DNA from: Geovibrio thiophilus
GTDB lineage: Bacteria; Chrysiogenota; Deferribacteres; Deferribacterales; Geovibrionaceae
Assembly: GCF_004087915.1 (NCBI RefSeq)
Contig: NZ_CP035108.1
Span: 186,001 to 250,000, forward strand
Direction: 5' to 3'
Length of the DNA stretch: 64,000 nucleotides
Part shown: one piece after another, positions 8,982-50,503 of the stretch
Position numbering within the stretch: the first letter of the stretch is position 1
How the letters are laid out: each line of letters opens with the position of its first letter
Translations under genes and position numbers: made by a program
The notes under the pieces: model-generated
Databases searched by the model: none
What the model saw: only the letters and a program-made list of their open reading frames with translations
Told to the model about the DNA's origin: nothing

Positions 8982-10361
8982 GTGAAAAGAAATTTTTTTA
9001 TTCTCAATTTTATCACAGCTTTTATTCTCGTCTCCGCCGCCAGTGCTTTCATACTTCATAAAGCGGACATATCAGTCCGCCGGATTATCAATGAACAGAG
9101 AAAGACTGTCCGCGCTCAGATAGGGGATAAGCTGAAAAGCTTCGATCTTTTTATGCTTGTTATGGCAGACAGAATGGAGGAGCGTGCCGGACAAGCCCTG
9201 CGTGAGATAGATGCCGTTCTGGGCGAATCCGCCGCAAAGGGCATTCCCGCTGATCCTGAAACTCTGCGCAGGCTGGCGGATGAAAAGGGTGTGGGGGAGA
9301 TTTATCTCATCAACTCAAACGGAGTGGTTTTCAGCACCTCAAACCGCAGAGAGCAGGGGGTCAGCCTGACAAAAGCCGGAAAGAGTCTGGCTGATTTCAT
9401 AAACTCCCTTTACGGAACCGGAACATTCTCGCACGGAAGACTCAGTGTCGGAATGGTCACGGGCAGACCGGCTATGTTTTCCTACTACAGTCCGAAGGGC
9501 AGCTCATACATTACGGAAACCGCCGTCTATCTTGAAGACTTTATATCCGAAAGCCACGGCAGAAATGTTTACGAGTATTACTTCAGAGACTATTTCAGTG
9601 AACTGGTAAATTCCTGTGCTTATACCCGTAATATAGATGTCTTCACCAAATTCAGCGTTTCCGGCTACTCTCTTTTCAATTTCCGGCGGGAGTTTCCCCT
9701 TGAGCCCTCATCCGCTGACCGCCTGAAAAACGGAGAAATGATAGAGAAAAGGGATGGCGGAAGGCTTTATGAATATTCGGCTTTCAGGCTGAAAAATTCC
9801 GAAGGAGACTTTGCCGAGACATACTATCTGGAGGTTGTTTATGATTTCTCCGGTGTCGGTGATTCGGTAATGAGGTCCGCGTATGCGGCTATTTTTTCGG
9901 TTTTTCTCAGCGGCGTTCTCCTGTTTTTCATGCTGAACTGTCTGACCTCAAAGAAAAAGTGCGCTGAGAGCGGAAACGCTGATTCCGGTTTGAGCCCGAT
10001 TCCGGGTTCCGAGCCGCAGACAGCAGACGGCGGGTCCGGACTTTTCCAGCCGCAGGCGGGTCATAAAGGCTACAGGATACTTCTGGCGGACGATTCGGAG
10101 TACAACAGGTTCGTAACAGAGTCCTATATAGAGGGCTCCGGCTGCGTACTAGACTATGCCGACAGCGGCTTTGCGGCTCTGGAGCTTTTTTCCAAAAACA
10201 GATACGACATGGTGCTTACGGACATTCAGATGCCGAAGATGAACGGGTACGAGCTTACGAAAGAGATACGCGCCTTGGAGGAGAGCACGGGAATGAAGCG
10301 CACTCCGGTTATCGCCATAACCGCCTATGACCTTGAGCGCGAGAGGAGAGCACGGGAATGA
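8982..10361 (+). CDS. Membrane-anchored receiver protein, N-terminal part of a gene split by a 65-bp duplication
   Basis: The protein has an N-terminal membrane helix, a periplasmic sensor region of about 270 residues resembling Cache-type domains, and a second helix near residues 300-320. A linker then leads to a CheY-like receiver (ILLADDSEYNR, phospho-acceptor Asp414 in VLTDIQMPKMNG). No histidine-kinase core lies between membrane and receiver, which is unusual. An exact tandem duplication of 65 bp (10278-10342, repeated from 10343) shifts the frame and ends the ORF after AYDLERERRARE, before receiver beta5. Removing one unit restores a 601-residue sensor-REC-Hpt protein. The stop overlaps the ATG of the downstream fragment (ATGA). 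Whether this is a real allele, a phase switch or an assembly error is open. Confidence 0.85.
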   Translation: MKRNFFILNFITAFILVSAASAFILHKADISVRRIINEQRKTVRAQIGDKLKSFDLFMLVMADRMEERAGQALREIDAVLGESAAKGIPADPETLRRLADEKGVGEIYLINSNGVVFSTSNRREQGVSLTKAGKSLADFINSLYGTGTFSHGRLSVGMVTGRPAMFSYYSPKGSSYITETAVYLEDFISESHGRNVYEYYFRDYFSELVNSCAYTRNIDVFTKFSVSGYSLFNFRREFPLEPSSADRLKNGEMIEKRDGGRLYEYSAFRLKNSEGDFAETYYLEVVYDFSGVGDSVMRSAYAAIFSVFLSGVLLFFMLNCLTSKKKCAESGNADSGLSPIPGSEPQTADGGSGLFQPQAGHKGYRILLADDSEYNRFVTESYIEGSGCVLDYADSGFAALELFSKNRYDMVLTDIQMPKMNGYELTKEIRALEESTGMKRTPVIAITAYDLERERRARE

Positions 10362-10408
10362 AGCGCACTCCGGTTATCGCCATAACCGCCTATGACCTTG
10401 AGCGCGAG
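10278..10408 (+). repeat. Exact 65-bp tandem duplication inside the receiver domain
   Basis: The bases 10278-10343 recur exactly at 10343-10408, an offset of 65 bp. Because 65 is not a multiple of three, the duplication breaks the reading frame. The span 8982-10852 is 1871 bp; minus 65 it is 1806 bp, exactly 602 codons including the stop. Both copies contain the codons for MKRTPVIAITAYDLERE. The second copy's ATG (10358) follows GGAG at a workable distance and so can serve as a new start. Confidence 0.97.
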
Positions 10409-10852
10409 GCGAAGCGATGCCTTGAGGCAGGCTGCGACGCTTACGTTGCCAAGCCGCTGAACAGGGACATGCTGCTGAAAACCATGTCTATCTTCCGTGA
10501 CGGGCAGATAGAAAAGCCCTCAATGCCCGAGGAGGGGGAGGACGGCTTCATCTCTCTGAGTGTGCGCCCTGAATTCGCCGAGGTGACGCCTCTGTTTCTT
10601 AAGGATCTGAAGCAGGCGCCGCAGAAGATACGGGAATTTCTGGAAAAGGATGATTTTGAGTCGATCCAATTCATAGGTCACAGACTCAAGGGCGAGGCAA
10701 AAACATTCGGCTTTGAACCTGTCAGCGATTATGGGCTCTATATTCAGGGAGCCGCCATACGCAGAAACCGTCAGAAGATAGAGGAAACGGCGGAAGCTCT
10801 GAACGAATACGCATCAAAAATAAGGCTTATTTTTGACAAAAAAAGTGTATGA
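10358..10852 (+). CDS. C-terminal receiver fragment plus Hpt domain (downstream part of the split gene)
   Basis: This frame carries the end of the receiver, including the conserved Lys32 of DAYVAKPL, then a linker and an Hpt domain with FIGHRLKGEAK (phospho-acceptor His108). It is the continuation of the upstream ORF after the 65-bp duplication. The ATG at 10358 overlaps the upstream stop as ATGA and has GGAGAG 9-13 bp before it, so translation by re-initiation is plausible. The two fragments could then reassemble into one receiver. If the duplication is an artefact, the true gene is one 601-residue protein. The adaptor gene at 10892 begins 40 bp further on. Confidence 0.85.
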   Translation: MKRTPVIAITAYDLEREAKRCLEAGCDAYVAKPLNRDMLLKTMSIFRDGQIEKPSMPEEGEDGFISLSVRPEFAEVTPLFLKDLKQAPQKIREFLEKDDFESIQFIGHRLKGEAKTFGFEPVSDYGLYIQGAAIRRNRQKIEETAEALNEYASKIRLIFDKKSV

Positions 10853-29920: not shown

Positions 29921-30005
29921 GCCCGAATGGCGGAATAGGTAGACGCAAGGGACTTAAAATCCCTCGGAATTTAATTCTGTGCCGGTTCGATTCCGGCTTC
30001 GGGCA
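29921..30005 (+). tRNA. tRNA-Leu (TAA), integration site of the genomic island
   Basis: An 85-nt class II tRNA. The acceptor GCCCGAA pairs with TTCGGGC, the anticodon loop CTTAAAA contains TAA, a long variable arm (TCGGAATTTAATTCTGT) follows, and the T-arm has GGTTCGATTCC. The discriminator is A; CCA is not encoded. Its 3' part is duplicated exactly at 34192-34250, marking it as the attachment site of the element. Confidence 0.97.
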
Positions 30006-30008
30006 CTT
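29950..30008 (+). repeat. attL, 59-bp direct repeat within tRNA-Leu
   Basis: Bases 29950-30008 are identical to 34192-34250. The repeat begins in the anticodon stem and ends three bases beyond the tRNA 3' end, typical for tyrosine-integrase elements that rebuild the tRNA on insertion. Confidence 0.95.
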
Positions 30009-30026
30009 ATATATATCAATAACTTA

Positions 30027-30063
30027 CAAAGGGCAGTCCTTGTTATGGGGCTGCCCTTCTTTG
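30027..30063. terminator. Terminator hairpin just inside the left end of the element
   Basis: AAGGGCAG(T)CC pairs with GG(G)CTGCCCTT around a 7-nt loop, followed by CTTTGTTTC. It can end tRNA-Leu transcripts on the plus strand and the element's own operon on the minus strand. Confidence 0.7.
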
Positions 30064-30089
30064 TTTCTGTGTTGTAAAAATGTTGTATT

Positions 30090-30317
30090 TTATTTTGAAG
30101 AAAAAACTTCTGATAGCCTGTCGGGAAGGTCAGGATATTTCTTAAAGACTCGCCACCATCTTTTGAGATCAGCATGAAAGAGCTTAAAGTTTTCATCTCC
30201 CAAACGCCATGAGCCCATAATAATATCAATTTCATTATTATCATACTCTTCAAATCTAATTTCTTTCTTAGGGCTAAGCTCTAGTGTCAAATGTCTAATT
30301 ACTTCTCTTTCTCTCAT
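30090..30317 (-). CDS. Small hypothetical protein of the element (75 aa)
   Basis: The gene starts within the stop of its upstream neighbour (4-bp overlap), which supports its being real. The product is charged and soluble, with LTLELSPKKEIRFEEYDNN and a Trp-rich segment ADLKRWWRVFKKYPDLPDRL. I recognise no family. As the last gene of the rep operon it may serve copy control, packaging or host takeover, but there is no evidence for any of these. Confidence 0.65.
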   Translation of the reverse strand: MREREVIRHLTLELSPKKEIRFEEYDNNEIDIIMGSWRLGDENFKLFHADLKRWWRVFKKYPDLPDRLSEVFSSK

Positions 30318-30556
30318 AAGTCATCACCAAAGACTGATATTACTGATGAAGCAGTCGGCAGTTCATCAATAATACTTTTAATTGTTTTATTTTCTGATAA
30401 TCCCGGATGTTCAAATTGAAATTCAAGGTCAGAAAAATCAAAAGTTCCAAGCAATTCATTTGCCCTGAAAATATCAACTGTTTCGTTTTCATAGAGAACA
30501 AATTTGTAATCAATGTCTTTTTCTGTTTTTAAAACACATATGCTATTTACTTTCAT
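30314..30556 (-). CDS. Small hypothetical protein of the element (80 aa)
   Basis: An acidic 80-residue protein (MKVNSICVLKTEKDIDYKF), predicted mostly beta with a helical C-terminal part. Its start overlaps the end of the Rep gene by 14 bp and its stop overlaps the next gene by 4 bp. Tight coupling in rep-X-Y order is common in filamentous-phage-like and rolling-circle elements, where such proteins bind single-stranded DNA or regulate Rep. No motif proves this here. Confidence 0.65.
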   Translation of the reverse strand: MKVNSICVLKTEKDIDYKFVLYENETVDIFRANELLGTFDFSDLEFQFEHPGLSENKTIKSIIDELPTASSVISVFGDDL

Positions 30557-31772
30557 GGCTCATTTCTCCTTGTTCTATGACAGAATACTTTCCACTACTC
30601 CATTCAAAACAATCATCATCTACAATCAAAGTTAGATTAAGCGGGCTTTTATCATCTTTGCGGTAAACTTCATAGTCTGCCCTGCCAGATTCAATCATTT
30701 TTGTTAATTCATACAGAGTGATATTGCGTTCCTTCAATTCTTTATAAAAGCGGCTAAAAACGAAGAAAGGAGCGAGAGTTTTTGAATAGGTTATCATTCT
30801 AAGATTATTAAATTTTATGAGCCTTTCTTCGGTGCGCTCACGCTCGTTACCTGAACCATCTGATTTTATGCCCGCACCTTTCATTACATACTTGCTGATG
30901 TACCTCATGACTTGCATATAATAATCATTTTGATATTTTGTCTCATCATGTATGAATTTGATATAAAGGAAATCTCCAGAAGAAATGTTGAAGTTTTCAA
31001 GAGCATAGCAATCAGGCTTTCTATTATCGAATGGTTTGAAAGGAAATTGCTTTAAATAGGGCTCATAGTATTTTTTAGGAATAACTACTTCTGTCCGCCC
31101 TATTTCAGAAAAATGAGCTTTTTTTCTTTCAATGACCTCAAAAAAATTAAGAAAAGCCAACTTTTCATCTGGTACATAATAAGCACAATGAGAATGAAGC
31201 GTATAATCTTTCTGAAACTCAAGTGTATAGATATACTGAAAGAAGTCAGATGAAATATAATACCAATCTTGAGAAATTCTTAAAGCCTTCTTGCGTGTCT
31301 CGGTTGGCTCCCTGAATAAATTATCGTCCCTTAATGCGCGGTGAAAATTTCTAAGCAATGCAGATTGTTTTTTTACGATAGAAACATCTTCTTGATTAAA
31401 ACGAGAAGATTTCAATGTGGCAGTAACAAAAATCATTGCTAGGTTCTTTTCCTGAGCAAGGCTATTAAATGAGTCAATAAGATTTAAGTATTGAGCATAT
31501 CTTCTGAACCTCAGATGCTCAACAAGCTCGTATAGAGATATAAAAGTTTCATTAATTTGGATGCCATGCGTTAATAAATACGAAAGATTTTTTTTATCTT
31601 TGCTGTCATAAATCAAGTTCAGTAATTTTAATGAAACTCCTACTCCCATCATTGCTACCGCACTTGGTGTATAACTAAACAAGGGGCGGTTTTTTTCGCT
31701 TGCGCTCATGCCTTCGCTTACGCTTCGGCAGTCATCACCGCAAGGCGCACCGCTAGCAAAAGAAGAGGTCAT
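30543..31772 (-). CDS. HUH-type rolling-circle replication initiator (Rep)
   Basis: The 409-residue protein has the motifs of HUH endonucleases. A strand MIFVTATLKSS matches motif 1, LHSHCAYYVP gives the His-x-His metal site (motif 2), and MRYISKYVMKGAG gives the YxxKYxxK catalytic tyrosine/lysine region (motif 3). Such enzymes nick the origin and start rolling-circle replication of plasmids, inoviruses and phage satellites. The first ~25 residues are encoded by an unusually GC-rich block holding an 18-bp imperfect direct repeat (31695-31730). A start at the internal Met22 is possible. It overlaps the excisionase-like gene upstream by 4 bp and the small gene downstream. Confidence 0.8.
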   Translation of the reverse strand: MTSSFASGAPCGDDCRSVSEGMSASEKNRPLFSYTPSAVAMMGVGVSLKLLNLIYDSKDKKNLSYLLTHGIQINETFISLYELVEHLRFRRYAQYLNLIDSFNSLAQEKNLAMIFVTATLKSSRFNQEDVSIVKKQSALLRNFHRALRDDNLFREPTETRKKALRISQDWYYISSDFFQYIYTLEFQKDYTLHSHCAYYVPDEKLAFLNFFEVIERKKAHFSEIGRTEVVIPKKYYEPYLKQFPFKPFDNRKPDCYALENFNISSGDFLYIKFIHDETKYQNDYYMQVMRYISKYVMKGAGIKSDGSGNERERTEERLIKFNNLRMITYSKTLAPFFVFSRFYKELKERNITLYELTKMIESGRADYEVYRKDDKSPLNLTLIVDDDCFEWSSGKYSVIEQGEMSHESK

Positions 31773-31975
31773 ATTATACCTCTTGCTTTAACTGTATTTG
31801 ATGTGATGAGATTCTCTAGAGTGTCTCTTGAAATAAAGACACGCCGAGAGATTTTGACGTGTTCAATCTTCCGCTTATAAATCCAGTCATAAAGAGTATG
31901 TTCGGAAAAACCAGTATAGGCGGCGGCTTCCTGAATAGAAAAAAGTCGTTTCTCAATGCCTGTTCCAACTGACAT
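31769..31975 (-). CDS. Excisionase-like helix-turn-helix protein (MerR/AlpA type)
   Basis: The 68-residue protein is a single winged-helix module with the hallmark FSIQEAAAYTGFSEHTLYDW and the wing VKISRRVFISRDTLENL. Proteins of this size act as excisionases (Xis/AlpA), directing integrase toward excision, or as small repressors. It stands at the head of the rep operon, just after the largest non-coding gap of the element, so it probably controls excision and replication together. An 8-bp inverted repeat (CTCCGTAT/ATACGGAG, 31982-32004) lies right before its start. Confidence 0.88.
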   Translation of the reverse strand: MSVGTGIEKRLFSIQEAAAYTGFSEHTLYDWIYKRKIEHVKISRRVFISRDTLENLITSNTVKARGII

Positions 31976-32065
31976 AATGCCCTCCGTATGCGTTTGATAC
32001 GGAGAACTTAGGCTATTTCAGTTGGTCAAAGCAAAGCTACATGACCAAGAAAATTAAAGGTCGCT

Positions 32066-32108
32066 AAATAAAATTACGCCAATTTTATAAATTGTCATAA
32101 TTTTATTT
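32066..32108. other. Nested AT-rich cruciform, candidate replication origin of the element
   Basis: AAATAAAATTA (32066-32076) and TAATTTTATTT (32098-32108) are perfect 11-bp arms. Inside them CAATTT (32080-32085) and AAATTG (32089-32094) form a second 6-bp stem with a 3-nt loop. The whole lies in the 204-bp gap of the element, near the rep operon. Extrudable hairpins are the usual nick sites of HUH initiators. A transcription-control role is the alternative. Confidence 0.5.
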
Positions 32109-32136
32109 ATAAGCTCCATGGAAAGGCGAACAGATA

Positions 32137-32179
32137 CCTTTCTTTCCTCCTGTTTTTTGTGAAGGAGGGAAAGAAAGGG
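32137..32179 (-). terminator. Large hairpin after the integrase operon
   Basis: CCTTTCTTTCCTCC (32137-32150) pairs with GGAGGGAAAGAAAGGG (32164-32179) with one bulged base and a T-rich loop. It begins directly after the stop of the 32180-32971 gene, so it may end that transcript, although no clear T-tract follows. A single-strand origin is the other possibility. Confidence 0.5.
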
Positions 32180-32971
32180 TTAAGGTTTGATTACTTTCCT
32201 GACAGTATCCAAAGAGCGCTTTAAGTCAAGATTTTTAATAACAATTCTTGCAACAGCAGAATCATTATCAGGTTCAAAAATAGTTTTTCGTACACTTTCA
32301 GCTTCTTGTCTCCAGCGTTCATGTTCTTCATTTACAGGAGAGCCGTCACGTTGACCACCGTTTGACTTACATTGTCTTTGTGTTTTTACATATTGGAATA
32401 TCGTATCTTCATAATTAAGTTCTTTTGCCCCAAATGCCCCTGACAGGATTTCCATTTTATAGAAGGCATCAAGCATTGCAATTATGCTCAGTTCGACATT
32501 AGAAGATATATTACGTTCAATTTGTGTAAGATGAATCAATGCCTCATATGCGAATTGTACGTTTAAGGGGTGTTCAGGGTGTATGTATTCTTCTCCGTAT
32601 ATGATTTCTTGGTTCTCGGCAGCCATTAATTCATCAATAGAAACTCCTTCTGTTCTTTTATAATAAATATTTTCAAGGTCAGCATTTGAAGTTCTATCAA
32701 ATAAATCTATCTCTTCTTCACCGAGAACTAAACTAATCTTACGTTTGAAGTAATTAAGGGCTTCTGTAAGATTATGAAAATTATGAGTTCCAAGTTTGAA
32801 AAGTTCAAAATTATCTATCTCAAGTTCTTCCGCCTCGTTACTTCGTCTGAGAACCATTCTATCAAAATATTCAGGAGGGCGGGTGCAGAATCTTCTATGG
32901 TGCCAGTATCGTAATGATCCAATAATTTTAATCCACCATATGAAACAGAAGTATTTAATTCTCTTCAACAC
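32180..32971 (-). CDS. Hypothetical protein of the element (263 aa)
   Basis: The gene starts 16 bp inside the end of the integrase gene and is transcribed with it. The product has a hydrophobic, aromatic N-terminus (CFIWWIKIIGSL) that could be a membrane anchor. A long acidic, helical soluble part follows with LGEEEIDLFDRTSNADLENIYY and a region around QFAYEALIHLTQIERNISSNVEL. I recognise no family. Genes directly behind integrases are often cargo for immunity or maintenance, but the sequence gives no direct evidence for such a role. Confidence 0.72.
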   Translation of the reverse strand: MLKRIKYFCFIWWIKIIGSLRYWHHRRFCTRPPEYFDRMVLRRSNEAEELEIDNFELFKLGTHNFHNLTEALNYFKRKISLVLGEEEIDLFDRTSNADLENIYYKRTEGVSIDELMAAENQEIIYGEEYIHPEHPLNVQFAYEALIHLTQIERNISSNVELSIIAMLDAFYKMEILSGAFGAKELNYEDTIFQYVKTQRQCKSNGGQRDGSPVNEEHERWRQEAESVRKTIFEPDNDSAVARIVIKNLDLKRSLDTVRKVIKP

Positions 32972-34034
32972 TTAAATAGCTCCCCAGACGCTCTATGGTA
33001 CGCTTAGATTCTTTCAGACCTACATGGGTATAGCGTTCAATCATCTTGGCGGTTTTATGCCCTGAAATCTGCTGAATTTCGATGATACTTGCTCCTGATG
33101 CCGCAAGTCTGGTTATCATTGTATGTCTTAGTTCGTGAAATACGATGTTCAGTTGCGCACGTTCGACAGCCTTTTCAAAACCACCGCTTAAATCCTTTAA
33201 TCTTTGTCCGTCAGTGGGGCGGGAGAAAATATATTCATACTTGCCAGTAAGGGAATGAAGTTCGATTAAAACGGGTTTTAAAGAGTTTATGATGGGTATT
33301 TCTCTAGGTTGGTTATTCTTGGTTTTGTAAATTCTGATGCTGTTTTCTTCAAAACTGATGTTGCTCCATTTAAGGTTAATAACCTCGCTGTATCTCATGC
33401 CAGTATAAAGAGCCACCATAACGAAATGATAAAGAATAGGACTTCTGGAATTGCGACATTCTGCAAGGAGTTTTTTTTCATCTGCACTGCTCAAGACATT
33501 TCTTTCTTTTGGCTGTTCCTGAAGCATTGGAAGTTTTCTTACTGGATTACGGTCTATCAGCTCCAATGATTCAGCATAGTTGAAAGCGAATTTAACTACT
33601 TGAAGGTATCTATTGACCGTGGCAGGCGAGCGCTTCCCGTTATTGATAAAGTTTCTATAGTTTTCAATATCGGTTCTGCTGATGTTATTCATGGATTTGT
33701 CAAAATCTTTGAAATCTCTTGCCGACTCAAAGCGTCCACGGTGAAAATCTGTAAGATGGTTTTTGTAATAATCCTTGTAGTAAGTATTAAAAAAGGTTTT
33801 CCATAGAATAGTTTTTGTGATTCCAAAAAAACGATTTTCACGTACATCTGTTTTACGTTTTGCCAGAGCTTCACGAGCATACCCGATGCTATCGCCGATT
33901 TTCTCGGTTTTCCGTTTTCCATCAATAGAATATTGTATATAGTAATTCTTGCTTAGTTTCTCGCCGCATGATTTGCAGTTTTTTGACTGTGTACTGTTGA
34001 AGGTTCGACATTCGCATCTGTTGAATATTGCCAT
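32955..34034 (-). CDS. int: Tyrosine-recombinase integrase with N-terminal zinc ribbon
   Basis: The ATG at 34034 (GAGG upstream) is chosen over an upstream open frame reaching 34151. The 359-residue protein begins with a CxC...CxxC zinc-ribbon-like segment (CECRTFNSTQ, then KNCKSCGEKL). A core-binding domain and catalytic domain follow. Catalytic residues are visible: Arg in YTGMRYSEVI, His-x-x-Arg in HELRHTMI, the second His in SGHKTAKM and the nucleophile Tyr in IERYTHVG. It should recombine the 59-bp tRNA-Leu att sites. It lies next to attR and reads into the element. Confidence 0.93.
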   Translation of the reverse strand: MAIFNRCECRTFNSTQSKNCKSCGEKLSKNYYIQYSIDGKRKTEKIGDSIGYAREALAKRKTDVRENRFFGITKTILWKTFFNTYYKDYYKNHLTDFHRGRFESARDFKDFDKSMNNISRTDIENYRNFINNGKRSPATVNRYLQVVKFAFNYAESLELIDRNPVRKLPMLQEQPKERNVLSSADEKKLLAECRNSRSPILYHFVMVALYTGMRYSEVINLKWSNISFEENSIRIYKTKNNQPREIPIINSLKPVLIELHSLTGKYEYIFSRPTDGQRLKDLSGGFEKAVERAQLNIVFHELRHTMITRLAASGASIIEIQQISGHKTAKMIERYTHVGLKESKRTIERLGSYLSVEEN

Positions 34035-34191
34035 TGAAGCCTCTGTGATGTGTGGTGTTGTAAAAATGTTGTAAAATAATAGAAACACCACCGTGAATTC
34101 TCCGTAATTCAACGATACCACAAAAGATAAAAAATGCAATATAACATGCACTTAAATAAGTCATCCTGAATTGTCGTGAATGCTTAAAAAA

Positions 34192-34250
34192 GGACTTAAA
34201 ATCCCTCGGAATTTAATTCTGTGCCGGTTCGATTCCGGCTTCGGGCACTT
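34192..34250 (+). repeat. attR, 59-bp copy of the tRNA-Leu 3' part
   Basis: It is identical to 29950-30008 and not preceded by the 5' half of a tRNA. It marks the right end of the integrated element, 158 bp upstream of the integrase start. Confidence 0.95.
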
Positions 34251-47159: not shown

Positions 47160-48347
47160 ATGTGTAAAATTGAGGTTAAAAACCTTTATAAACTCTTCGG
47201 TGAAAATGTCTCCCATGCCATTAATGACATGAAAAAGGGCAAGGGAAAAGAGGAGATTATGAAGAAGCACGGCGCTGCCGTGGGACTTGACAATGTGTCC
47301 TTCTCAGTAAAAGAGGGGGAGATTCTTGTGGTTATGGGGCTTTCCGGCTCGGGCAAATCCACGCTGATACGCTGCCTTAACAGGCTCATAGAGCCAACAG
47401 AGGGCGTGATCACCATCGATGGGCAGGACATCACCCGCTTTAACAAGGATCAGCTGCGGGAACTGCGCTCAAAAAAGTTCGGTATGGTTTTCCAGCGCTT
47501 CGCACTCTTCCCTCACAAAAGTGTCATCGAAAACGCCGCTTACGGGCTTGAGGTGCAGAATGTGCCCAAGGAGGAGAGGCTTAAGCGTGCGGCGGACTCC
47601 CTTGAGCTTGTGGGTTTAAAGGGTTGGGAGGAGTATTATCCCGAAAACCTCAGCGGCGGTATGCAGCAGAGGGTGGGACTTGCCAGAGCCCTTGCCGTGG
47701 AGCCGGACATTCTGCTCATGGACGAGGCGTTCAGCGCTCTTGATCCGCTGATAAAGCGTGAGATGCAGGATGAACTGCTCTCTCTTCAGGCGAGGGTTAA
47801 CAAGACTATAGTTTTCATCACCCATGATCTGGACGAGGCTCTGAAGCTGGGCGACAGGATTGTCCTGATGAAGGACGGGCGTGTGGTGCAGATAGGCGAA
47901 CCCGAGGAGATACTCACAAACCCCGCAAACATGTACGTGGAAAAGTTTGTGGAGAATGTGGATCTTTCCAAGGTTCTTACCGTTTCCAGCGTGATGATAA
48001 AACCCTTCGCCGTAACCTATCCGAAGGACGGTCCCAAGTCTGCGCTTCTTAAGATGAAGGAGGCGGGTATATCGTCCGTCATGGTGGTTAACAGGGAAAG
48101 GCAGTTCATGGGCATAGTCCATGTGAAGGACGTGCGCAAGGCGGCGGAGCTTAATCATAAGACTCTGGAAGAGGTTCTGGACAGAGATGTTGTGAGCGCT
48201 CTGCCGGATGAGAACATAAGCGGGCTTTTCACGGCGGCTAAGTTTCCCATAGCCGTTGTGGACGAAAAGGGCGTGCTGAAAGGCGCTGTTGTGAGGGGTT
48301 CGCTCCTCTCCGCGCTATCATTTGAAGGTGGCGTAGGCAATGGATAG
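47160..48347 (+). CDS. proV: Glycine betaine/proline ABC importer ATPase with CBS domains
   Basis: The 395-residue ATPase has the ProV/OpuAA layout: an N-terminal extension of about 40 residues, Walker A GLSGSGKST, Q-loop, signature LSGGMQQRVGLARAL, Walker B ILLMDEAFSALDP and H-loop THDLDEA. Two C-terminal CBS repeats (from residue about 280) usually sense ionic strength. It powers uptake of compatible solutes together with the permease overlapping its end by 8 bp and the binding protein further on. AAGG precedes the start. Confidence 0.93.
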   Translation: MCKIEVKNLYKLFGENVSHAINDMKKGKGKEEIMKKHGAAVGLDNVSFSVKEGEILVVMGLSGSGKSTLIRCLNRLIEPTEGVITIDGQDITRFNKDQLRELRSKKFGMVFQRFALFPHKSVIENAAYGLEVQNVPKEERLKRAADSLELVGLKGWEEYYPENLSGGMQQRVGLARALAVEPDILLMDEAFSALDPLIKREMQDELLSLQARVNKTIVFITHDLDEALKLGDRIVLMKDGRVVQIGEPEEILTNPANMYVEKFVENVDLSKVLTVSSVMIKPFAVTYPKDGPKSALLKMKEAGISSVMVVNRERQFMGIVHVKDVRKAAELNHKTLEEVLDRDVVSALPDENISGLFTAAKFPIAVVDEKGVLKGAVVRGSLLSALSFEGGVGNG

Positions 48348-49173
48348 CATACCGAAGTTTCCCCTCGGGGATATAATTGAAAAATTTATCGATTTTACCA
48401 CTGAGCATTTCTCCGATTTCACAAGGGCAGTGTCTGATATAACGGAAACCGCTCTGGATAACCTCATAGACGGGATGCTGTTTTTTCATCCCATATTGTT
48501 CATCGCCGTTGTCGGCGGGCTTCTGTTTAAGTTTTCAGGCAGAAAAATAGCCATAGGCAGTGTGGCGGGCTTGCTGTTTATACTGAATCTGGGACTTTGG
48601 AACGCAACAGTCTCAACTCTTGCTCTCGTGCTGTCGGCGACTCTGGTATCAATTGCCGTGGGCATACCTTTGGGTATTATGGCGGCGCTCTACAGACCGT
48701 TCAACAGGGTGCTTATGCCTCTGCTCGACTTCATGCAGACTATGCCCGCTTTCGTTTATCTGATTCCCGCTATTCCGTTTTTCGGTCTGGGTCCCGTGTC
48801 TGCCATTTTTACGACTGTGATATTCGCTATGCCTCCGTCCATAAGGCTCACCTGTCTCGGAATAAGTCAGGTTCCCTCAGAGCTCATTGAGGCTGCGGAT
48901 GCGTTCGGCTCAACCAAAAAGCAGAAGCTGTTCAAGCTTCAGCTTCCCCTTGCCATGCCTACCATAATGGCGGGCGTGAACCAGACAATCATGCTGGCGC
49001 TCTCCATGGTGGTTATCGCCGCTATGATCGGCGCGGGAGGACTTGGCGGAGAGGTCTGGAGAGCTATACAGAGACTCTGGATGGGCAGAGGCTTTGAGGC
49101 GGGTATTGCGGTGGTGATCATTGCGATGATCCTTGACAGGGTCACGCAGAGAACAGCAGTTAAAAAGAAATAG
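48340..49173 (+). CDS. proW: Glycine betaine/proline ABC importer permease
   Basis: The 277-residue protein has about seven membrane helices and the coupling (EAA) loop ELIEAADAFGSTKKQKLFKLQLPLAMP, quoted in part. ProW features include IPLGIMAALYRPFNRVLMPL and MIGAGGLGGEVWRAIQRL. The long N-terminal segment before helix 1 is typical. It overlaps proV. The next gene of the operon, the binding protein, begins 472 bp later, and the gap is filled by repeats that may set different expression levels for the two. Confidence 0.93.
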   Translation: MDSIPKFPLGDIIEKFIDFTTEHFSDFTRAVSDITETALDNLIDGMLFFHPILFIAVVGGLLFKFSGRKIAIGSVAGLLFILNLGLWNATVSTLALVLSATLVSIAVGIPLGIMAALYRPFNRVLMPLLDFMQTMPAFVYLIPAIPFFGLGPVSAIFTTVIFAMPPSIRLTCLGISQVPSELIEAADAFGSTKKQKLFKLQLPLAMPTIMAGVNQTIMLALSMVVIAAMIGAGGLGGEVWRAIQRLWMGRGFEAGIAVVIIAMILDRVTQRTAVKKK

Positions 49174-49198
49174 AGGATTGCTCAGTGTTATTTCGCGG

Positions 49199-49226
49199 TC
49201 ATTGCGAACGAAGTGAAGTAATCTCT
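49199..49226 (+). repeat. GTCATTGCGA-type short dispersed repeat
   Basis: GTCATTGCGAACGAAGTGAAG and the bases after it resemble a motif (GTCATTGCGAGCGAAGCGAAGCAATC, from memory) that occurs as intergenic repeats in many bacteria. It sits just after proW and is followed by a GCGTCAA/TTGACGC hairpin at about 49229-49262. Only one copy is seen in this window. Confidence 0.5.
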
Positions 49227-49268
49227 TATGCGTCAATCAGGCAGAATGTGCGGGTTGACGCTGTTAAA

Positions 49269-49635
49269 ACAGTTCCAAGTATGGAACTGCGCCGTGCGAA
49301 GCGAAGCCGCATTCACTGCGGCGTGAGCGTGTATGCTGAATTTCCATGGATGGAAAATTCAGCATTATCAATACATGGCGTTTGCGGAAACGCAACTACA
49401 GTTCCAAGTATGGAACTGCGCCGTGCGAAGCGAAGCCGCATTCACTGCGGCGTGAGCGTGTATGCTGAATTTCCATGGATGGAAAATTCAGCATTATCAA
49501 TACATGGCGTTTGCGGAAACGCAACTACAGTTCCAAGTATGGAACTGCGCCGTGCGAAGCGAAGCCGCATTCACTGCGGCGTGAGCGTGTATGCTGAATT
49601 TCCATGGATGGAAAATTCAGCATTATCAATAAAAG
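49269..49635 (+). repeat. Three tandem 129-bp units of a structured repeat between proW and proX
   Basis: Units start at 49269, 49398 and 49527; the third stops after about 109 bp, just before the proX ribosome-binding site. Each unit contains four hairpins in order: AGTTCCA/TGGAACT, GCCGCA/TGCGGC, a long stem GCTGAATT.../...AATTCAGC capped around CATGGATG, and GCGTTT/AAACGC (the last missing from unit 3). The units are virtually identical, so the array expanded recently. In the operon's RNA it would form an array of about eleven hairpins before proX, as REP-like elements do when they stabilise upstream mRNA. Confidence 0.93.
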
Positions 49636-49645
49636 GAGGAAACTT

Positions 49646-50503
49646 ATGAAGAAGATTACAAAGTTATTTACAGCGGCGCTGCTCAGTCTCGTGATTTTCA
49701 CGGGTGCGGCACAGGCTAAGGAAAGGGTGGAGCTTGTATATGTGGAATGGGCAAGAGCCGTTGCCATAACCCATGTGGCGGGGGTATTGCTTGAGGAGAT
49801 GGGATACGATGTCAAAACCAGCTCAGTGGCAAACGCCGCCATGTGGGCTTCGGTTGCGGAGGGTGATTCCGATGCTCTTCTCTGCGCTTGGCTGCCCGTT
49901 ACCCATGCGGATCTTTACACTAAGTACAAAGAAAAAATAGTCGACCTCGGTCCCAACTATGTTGACGCCAAGCTCGGTTTTGTTGTTCCAGCTTATGTCA
50001 CAATCAACTCTGTCAGAGAGATGGGCGCGAACATAGACAAATTCAGAGGGAAAATAATCGGTATCGATCCCGGCGCGGGCATGTCAAAAGCCGCTGAGGA
50101 AGCTATAGCAAAAAATACCGCAGGCATCGGCAAGTTTGAATATGTCTCCGGCAGCGATGCGATAATGGTAGCCTCGCTCTCAAACGCCATTAAAAGAAAG
50201 GAATGGATAGTCGTTCCCGGCTGGCAGCCCCACTGGATGTTCGGCGAATGGGATCTTAAGATACTCGATGATCCGGATAAAATATTCGGCGGTGCGGAAA
50301 CAATCAACACAGTCGTGAGAAAGGGTCTGGATAAGGATATGCCCGAAGTCTACACTTTCTTAAGTAAATTCGACTGGAAGCAGATTGATCTCAGCAGCGC
50401 CCTTGTGGACAACAAAAACGGCATGGACCCCAAGAAAAGCGCCGAAAAATTCGTAAAAGCCAACAGAGCCAAGATAGACGAACTGCTGAAAGCAGTGAAG
50501 TAA
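49646..50503 (+). CDS. proX: Glycine betaine/proline-type substrate-binding protein
   Basis: The ATG at 49646 has a perfect AAGGAGG and yields a signal peptide (LFTAALLSLVIFTGAAQA). The 285-residue protein is an OpuAC/ProX-type binding protein: YVEWARAVAITHVAGVLLEEMGY, quoted in part, DALLCAWLPVTHADLY, and the aromatic-rich region VVPGWQPHWMFGEWDLKIL that forms the cation-pi box for quaternary ammonium ligands. It is the periplasmic receptor of the importer encoded just upstream. A hairpin array precedes it and two very stable hairpins follow it. Confidence 0.93.
   Translation: MKKITKLFTAALLSLVIFTGAAQAKERVELVYVEWARAVAITHVAGVLLEEMGYDVKTSSVANAAMWASVAEGDSDALLCAWLPVTHADLYTKYKEKIVDLGPNYVDAKLGFVVPAYVTINSVREMGANIDKFRGKIIGIDPGAGMSKAAEEAIAKNTAGIGKFEYVSGSDAIMVASLSNAIKRKEWIVVPGWQPHWMFGEWDLKILDDPDKIFGGAETINTVVRKGLDKDMPEVYTFLSKFDWKQIDLSSALVDNKNGMDPKKSAEKFVKANRAKIDELLKAVK

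Follow-up and report, generated by a model that had tools for sequence, protein, structure and literature searches.

The gap between the proW and proX genes of Geovibrio thiophilus probably carries copies of a mobile-like RNA module with predicted CsrA sites, which would act in cis upstream of proX and serve as a sponge at other sites. The array before proX consists of three copies of a modular RNA element, composed of hairpin H1, a conserved core with a variable hairpin H2, and hairpin H3. The preliminary description of this array overlooked two features: the near-invariant GGA of the loops, whose match to the CsrA consensus points to a possible effector, and the fixed distance of the loops to the Shine-Dalgarno box. 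The features are listed in Table 1, with positions given in the window, that is, the whole stretch of 64,000 nucleotides that was analysed.

Tandem Repeats Finder places the array at 49269-49631 with a period of 129, 2.8 copies, 100% matches and no indels. It lies between the stop of proW (49173) and the start of proX (49646), and its last unit adjoins the Shine-Dalgarno box of proX, AAAGGAGG (49632-49639). Thus both the tandem 129-bp units between the two genes and the end of the array at the proX ribosome-binding site are as first described. The genes were identified by Pfam domains: PF00005 and CBS in proV, PF00528 in proW and PF04069 in proX. A single unit has a folding energy of -55.2 kcal/mol compared to -36.1 kcal/mol in shuffled sequences (z -5.8), and the entire gap also folds better than its shuffles (z -7.65), in agreement with the structured RNA suggested earlier. 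The units are identical, which supports the proposed recent local expansion. Of the four hairpins initially counted in each unit, H1, H2 and H3 do constitute the element, whereas the fourth belongs to the local spacer and is absent after unit 3. In all three copies the H3 loop is intact (ATGGAT), and the H1 loop is mutated (AAGTAT) with loss of GGA. The decayed hairpin directly upstream of the array is likely an older copy of the element. The other dispersed repeat in the same gap also occurs upstream of proX in a congener (G002), and its relatives are found inside spacers of several other arrays.

Table 1. Features of the proW-proX region (positions in the window)
Feature	Position	Strand	Remarks
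proW permease	48340-49173	+	5' of the array
Copy of another dispersed repeat, CATTGCGAACGAAGTGAAGTAATCTC	49200-49225	+	
Type B H3-like hairpin GCAGAATGT	49230-49261	+	decayed, GGA changed to GAA; directly 5' of the array
Array unit 1	49269-49397	+	element and array-specific spacer
H1 hairpin CAGTTCC[AAGTAT]GGAACTG	49270-49289	+	repeats at +129 and +258; family consensus loop ANGGAN
Conserved core CGCCGTGCGAAGCGAAG, variable hairpin H2 (49307-49321), then CGTGAGCGTGT	49290-49332	+	repeats at +129 and +258
H3 hairpin, predicted CsrA site	49333-49365	+	loop region CCATGGATGG at 49344-49353; repeats at +129 and +258
Spacer hairpin GCGTTTGCGGAAACGC	49378-49393	+	array-specific, outside the dispersed element; repeats at +129
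Array unit 2	49398-49526	+	same sequence as unit 1
Array unit 3	49527-49631	+	without spacer; end adjoins the proX Shine-Dalgarno box
Third H3, predicted CsrA site adjacent to the Shine-Dalgarno box	49591-49623	+	loop region 49602-49611
proX Shine-Dalgarno box AAAGGAGG	49632-49639	+	its GGA is the proposed second contact of CsrA
proX, OpuAC glycine betaine-type binding protein	49646-50503	+	

On the motif strand, the element consists of H1, the core CGCCGTGCGNAGCGAAG, the variable hairpin H2, GCGAGCGTGT, H3 and, usually, TTATNAA. The stems of all three hairpins vary freely in sequence, with compensation. Pairing holds in 96.9% of cells across H1, the core and H2; the number of compensatory cells is 179, compared to 45.5 in shuffled versions (0/500) and 18-34 in slid versions. 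The stems of type B H3 hairpins are paired in 92.4% of cases, as opposed to 55% when the arms are shuffled among elements. The loops, in contrast, are nearly fixed. In the hexaloop ANGGAN of H1 the A is found in 52, the two G in 54 and 53, and the last A in 57 of 59 elements, with variable N positions. H3 has loops of two types. In type A, CC[ANGGAN]GG, each of the A, G, G and A is present in 31/31 elements and the N are free. In type B, RC[AGGAN]GY, the C, A, first G and final A are present in 28/28 and the second G in 27/28. In both types one unpaired base comes next. Helix 2 contains near-invariant G-U pairs, which become C-A on the opposite strand, so that only the motif strand can form the structure.

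The array also lies within an open frame of 154 amino acids (49185-49649) and its period of 129 is divisible by three, as would be expected of a protein with 43-aa repeats. This reading has practically no chance of being correct. It was rejected because the periods of other arrays (such as 91, 94, 103, 142, 145 and 158) are mostly not multiples of three and break the frame, and because the substitutions compensate one another in RNA pairing.

Copies of the element are scattered over the genome. The refuting condition named in the preliminary description, a lack of further copies, is thus contradicted. BLAST yields 103 matches in this genome (3.0 Mb, one contig), and a covariance model based on 59 elements yields at least 150 copies. 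The same model finds 128 and 149 copies among the matches listed for two congeners (G001 and G002) and 21 copies in the sister genus (G003). A single genome from a third genus has 6 copies, and the remaining genomes searched have at most one each. The loop region CCATGGATGG occurs 85 times in the genome compared to one occurrence of the reversed control, and CCANGGANGG occurs 355 times compared to 39 for its control. A scan of genome contigs with the exact core retrieved only Deferri_01 loci and one chance match in Variovorax, the G. thiophilus genome itself being perhaps outside this collection. Rfam produced chance matches only, with no match to the CsrB or RsmX/Y/Z families even at E up to 1. 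No literature linking CsrA sites to dispersed repeats was found, which is weak evidence, as subscription papers were mostly beyond the search. The repeat family appears to be undescribed.

Among 147 copies gathered from stretches of the genome, groups of two to eight copies occur at 43 of 61 places. The copy spacings are specific to each place and range from 84 to 243 bp, and the 13-kb array repeats the end of the gene upstream. We infer that local arrays arose via tandem duplication including the flanking DNA. At three places (L050:2383, L058:2058 and, on the minus strand, L010:1470) the first H1 is preceded, at about 15 bp, by a box ATTGTGAT.ATCCTAAGAAT, which may be a promoter or an additional module. 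Two elements (L055 and L067, genome positions 843767 and 2523067) are interrupted by related inserts of about 40 bp (CAGCAAGCTTGGTACAGAAACCGCCG and relatives), which represent another small nested repeat.

The loops agree with the known binding preferences of CsrA and its homologs. In the SELEX consensus of CsrA, RUACARGGAUGU, ACA and GGA are invariant and AC pairs with GU (PMC7652899). RsmE contacts the A and GGA of an ANGGAN hexaloop, and the repeats of CsrB are CAGGA(U/A/C)G within hairpin loops (PMC7652899). The loops of the element match this CsrA/RsmA consensus in the A(N)GGA loop, the C-G closing pair and the AC/GU pairing. The exception is the type B loop, which has no R between ACA and GGA, as is also the case in CsrB repeats. 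Most SELEX ligands have shorter stems than the element, a difference that may weaken CsrA binding. The genome encodes, by Pfam, adjacent fliW and csrA genes, in this order. The CsrA protein has the residues L4 and R44 of the RNA-binding surface, and the solved structures related to it include that of RsmE (2jpp). Judging from the sequence, H1 and H3 are candidate CsrA/RsmA-binding sites.

The position of the element relative to genes was classified with a codon-usage gene finder made for this analysis. Among 75 places, 27 are convergent, 27 co-directional sense, 13 co-directional antisense, 5 divergent and 3 undetermined. Overall there is only a mild excess of sense over antisense (one-sided p about 0.02). 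Many copies lie just downstream of stop codons, and those near stop codons in this genome are of mixed orientation (28 sense and 22 antisense). When an element lies no more than about 35 nt from a start codon, it is always in the sense orientation: 12/12 in this genome, 10/10 in G001 and 1/1 in G002. A few of these 23/23 cases are orthologous, which makes them not entirely independent. For 11 of the 12 start-adjacent cases of G. thiophilus, the loop GGA lies 26-31 nt upstream of a Shine-Dalgarno-like motif, and the GGA of the H3 loop is retained in 12/12. The downstream genes are, by Pfam, proX, lexA, dnaG, prfB, purD and an OmpH/Skp-like gene, and, by sequence, a uracil permease gene and a sensor kinase gene. 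The observed spacing falls within the range of 10-63 nt over which CsrA can bridge two sites, with an optimum above 18 nt. Sense-only placement near Shine-Dalgarno boxes could in part reflect an insertion preference.

A known case of such an arrangement is glgC, which is repressed by CsrA via a pair of sites, one in a hairpin and the other in the Shine-Dalgarno box. Leaders of the glgC type share with the element the hairpin just 5' of the Shine-Dalgarno box (the high-affinity site in glgC) and the second GGA in the box itself. The difference is that here the hairpin is supplied by a repeated element at unrelated genes (proX, lexA, dnaG, prfB, purD and the skp-like gene). By analogy, CsrA would bind the GGA loop of H3 in the mRNA, and a CsrA dimer would bridge this loop and the GGA of the proX Shine-Dalgarno box about 27 nt downstream. 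Such bridging would block access of the ribosome, as at glgC, and lower proX translation, whereas withdrawal of CsrA by FliW or by competing sites would relieve the block. Copies that follow stop codons or form long arrays would serve mainly as CsrA sponges. The element itself would have been spread by some mobilising activity, and tandem duplication would then have multiplied it together with local flanking DNA. From these sequence data we infer that CsrA binds the element and represses proX, that other copies act as sponges, and that the element was mobilised. The influence of the array on proX expression that was suggested at the outset is thus predicted, and we count it as likely. Transcription as an independent RNA from its own promoter is possible only for some arrays, for example the one at 571913-572905.

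One could also consider a general element of mRNA processing or stability, formed by hairpins that stabilise 3' ends or are processed by RNases, which would raise the level of proX mRNA through structure and independently of CsrA. The strong hairpins, the location between the genes for the permease and the binding protein, and the many copies just past stop codons would fit such a role. On the other hand, structure alone leaves unexplained the near-invariant A and GGA beside free N positions, as well as the fixed distance to the Shine-Dalgarno box, and we consider this explanation quite improbable.

Comparison of orthologous sites is informative with regard to the candidate CsrA sites. In the gap between proW and proX, the array is absent from G001 and from the sister genus G003, and G002 has one different element. 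The hairpin adjacent to the proX Shine-Dalgarno box has the loop CCATGGATGG in G. thiophilus and TCAGGATGA on a different stem in G002. G. thiophilus and G001 differ at the uracil-permease-like gene, with an adjacent H3 of type A in the former and of type B in the latter. Upstream of dnaG, the stems of H1 and H2 are wholly different between G. thiophilus and G002, and the H3 loop is retained. Thus the loop types are exchanged and both the GGA and its distance to the Shine-Dalgarno box are kept, which we regard as the best evidence that selection targets the GGA loop. In G001, the site at 1.94 Mb is empty.

Empty sites in congeners, together with the high copy number, the intergenic bias, the tandem arrays with locus-specific spacers and the mixed orientation near stop codons, are also what would be expected of a selfish DNA repeat of the REP/BIME or MITE type, whose hairpins are read as single-stranded DNA by a transposase or another DNA enzyme. 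In that case the loop would be the recognition site for the enzyme, and effects on genes would be incidental. This explanation is unlikely, as the Y1_Tnp domain (PF01797) is absent from the genome, the same search being positive in 10 control genomes. Moreover, the loops are fixed while the stems are not conserved and the loop types are interchangeable, the near-invariant G-U pairs impose strand specificity, and all start-adjacent copies are in the sense orientation, with fixed spacing among those of G. thiophilus. The element does share with REP/BIME sequences, and with REPINs and their RAYT (TnpA_REP) transposases, the high copy number, intergenic location, palindromic structure and tandem arrays with repeated spacers, so the earlier suggestion of a REP-like element is correct insofar as this is a dispersed repeat. 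REP/BIME proper was rejected on the features tested: no Y1 transposase was found in the genome, the arrays are almost all direct, each unit has three different hairpins, and the stem sequences are not conserved and covary freely. Likewise, MITEs and the enterobacterial RU-1, RU-2 and RU-3 repeats resemble the element in length (about 100 bp), lack of coding capacity, number of copies and empty sites in relatives, and differ in that the element is constrained at the level of the loops. Alignment A1 has no inverted termini, and the empty sites show no clear target duplication.

The co-occurrence of csrA and the GGA-loop motif was compared within this phylum only. Most genomes without csrA have no excess of the motif, and many relatives with csrA are without the element. 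G003, which has csrA, contains an analogous element, with 316 occurrences of CCANGGANGG compared to 48 for the control; among its classifiable copies examined, 0/25 are start-adjacent. In G018, a genome of another family in which csrA was looked for and not detected, the motif is in excess in a different repeat. This repeat is longer, palindromic, has two GGA-loop hairpins, and is present in about 20 copies (L186-L205). The similarity of its loops in a genome without detected csrA is the main evidence against the CsrA reading and a further point in favour of a selfish repeat. The csrA-bearing relatives without the element, the mixed orientation near stop codons, the antisense copies at 13 co-directional places, the G003 copies away from starts and the lost GGA of H1 before proX likewise speak against CsrA. 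The G018 repeat may descend from a csrA-bearing host, or the GGA loops may have another reader. One copy of it adjoins a gene end resembling an IS110-type transposase.

If the predicted CsrA sites are functional, the closest counterparts of the element are the gammaproteobacterial sponges CsrB/CsrC and RsmX/Y/Z. They have in common the repeated GGA-loop hairpins, variable stems, the CAGGAUG/ANGGAN motifs and many sites per RNA. In contrast to these RNAs, the element has at least 150 dispersed copies in mRNA leaders, operon gaps and 3' regions, occurs in a FliW-containing phylum, has no Rfam match, and contains a conserved core between the hairpins. CsrA-antagonist RNAs have been described in gammaproteobacteria. 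To our knowledge, no such RNA is known in bacteria of the FliW type. The FliW-containing phyla, including Deferribacteres, are thought to depend on FliW (PMC4682653). Tentatively, and with somewhat less than an even chance judging from the sequence patterns, the element may be a mobile, or once mobile, module that spreads CsrA hairpins, wires proX, lexA, dnaG, prfB and purD into the control by CsrA via their Shine-Dalgarno boxes, and forms a distributed sponge in a bacterium of the FliW type. If so, hundreds of CsrA sites per genome would provide a different route for titrating CsrA and for drawing genes into its regulon, and a repeat family would be evolving under selection at the RNA level for a host protein. 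The prediction is that proX and roughly a dozen further genes are controlled in their expression by the GGA of the loop, and not by the sequence of the stem.

Two further features were observed in the window. At 10278-10408, an exact tandem duplication of 65 bp, not a multiple of three, cuts a sensor/response-regulator gene into two parts (8982-10361 and its continuation, 10358-10852); the resulting frameshift is possibly reversible. A 62-bp copy of the 3' end of tRNA-Leu(taa) at 34189-34250 marks an integrative element of 4.2 kb (29921-34250), which carries an integrase-like ORF on the minus strand (32955-34151).
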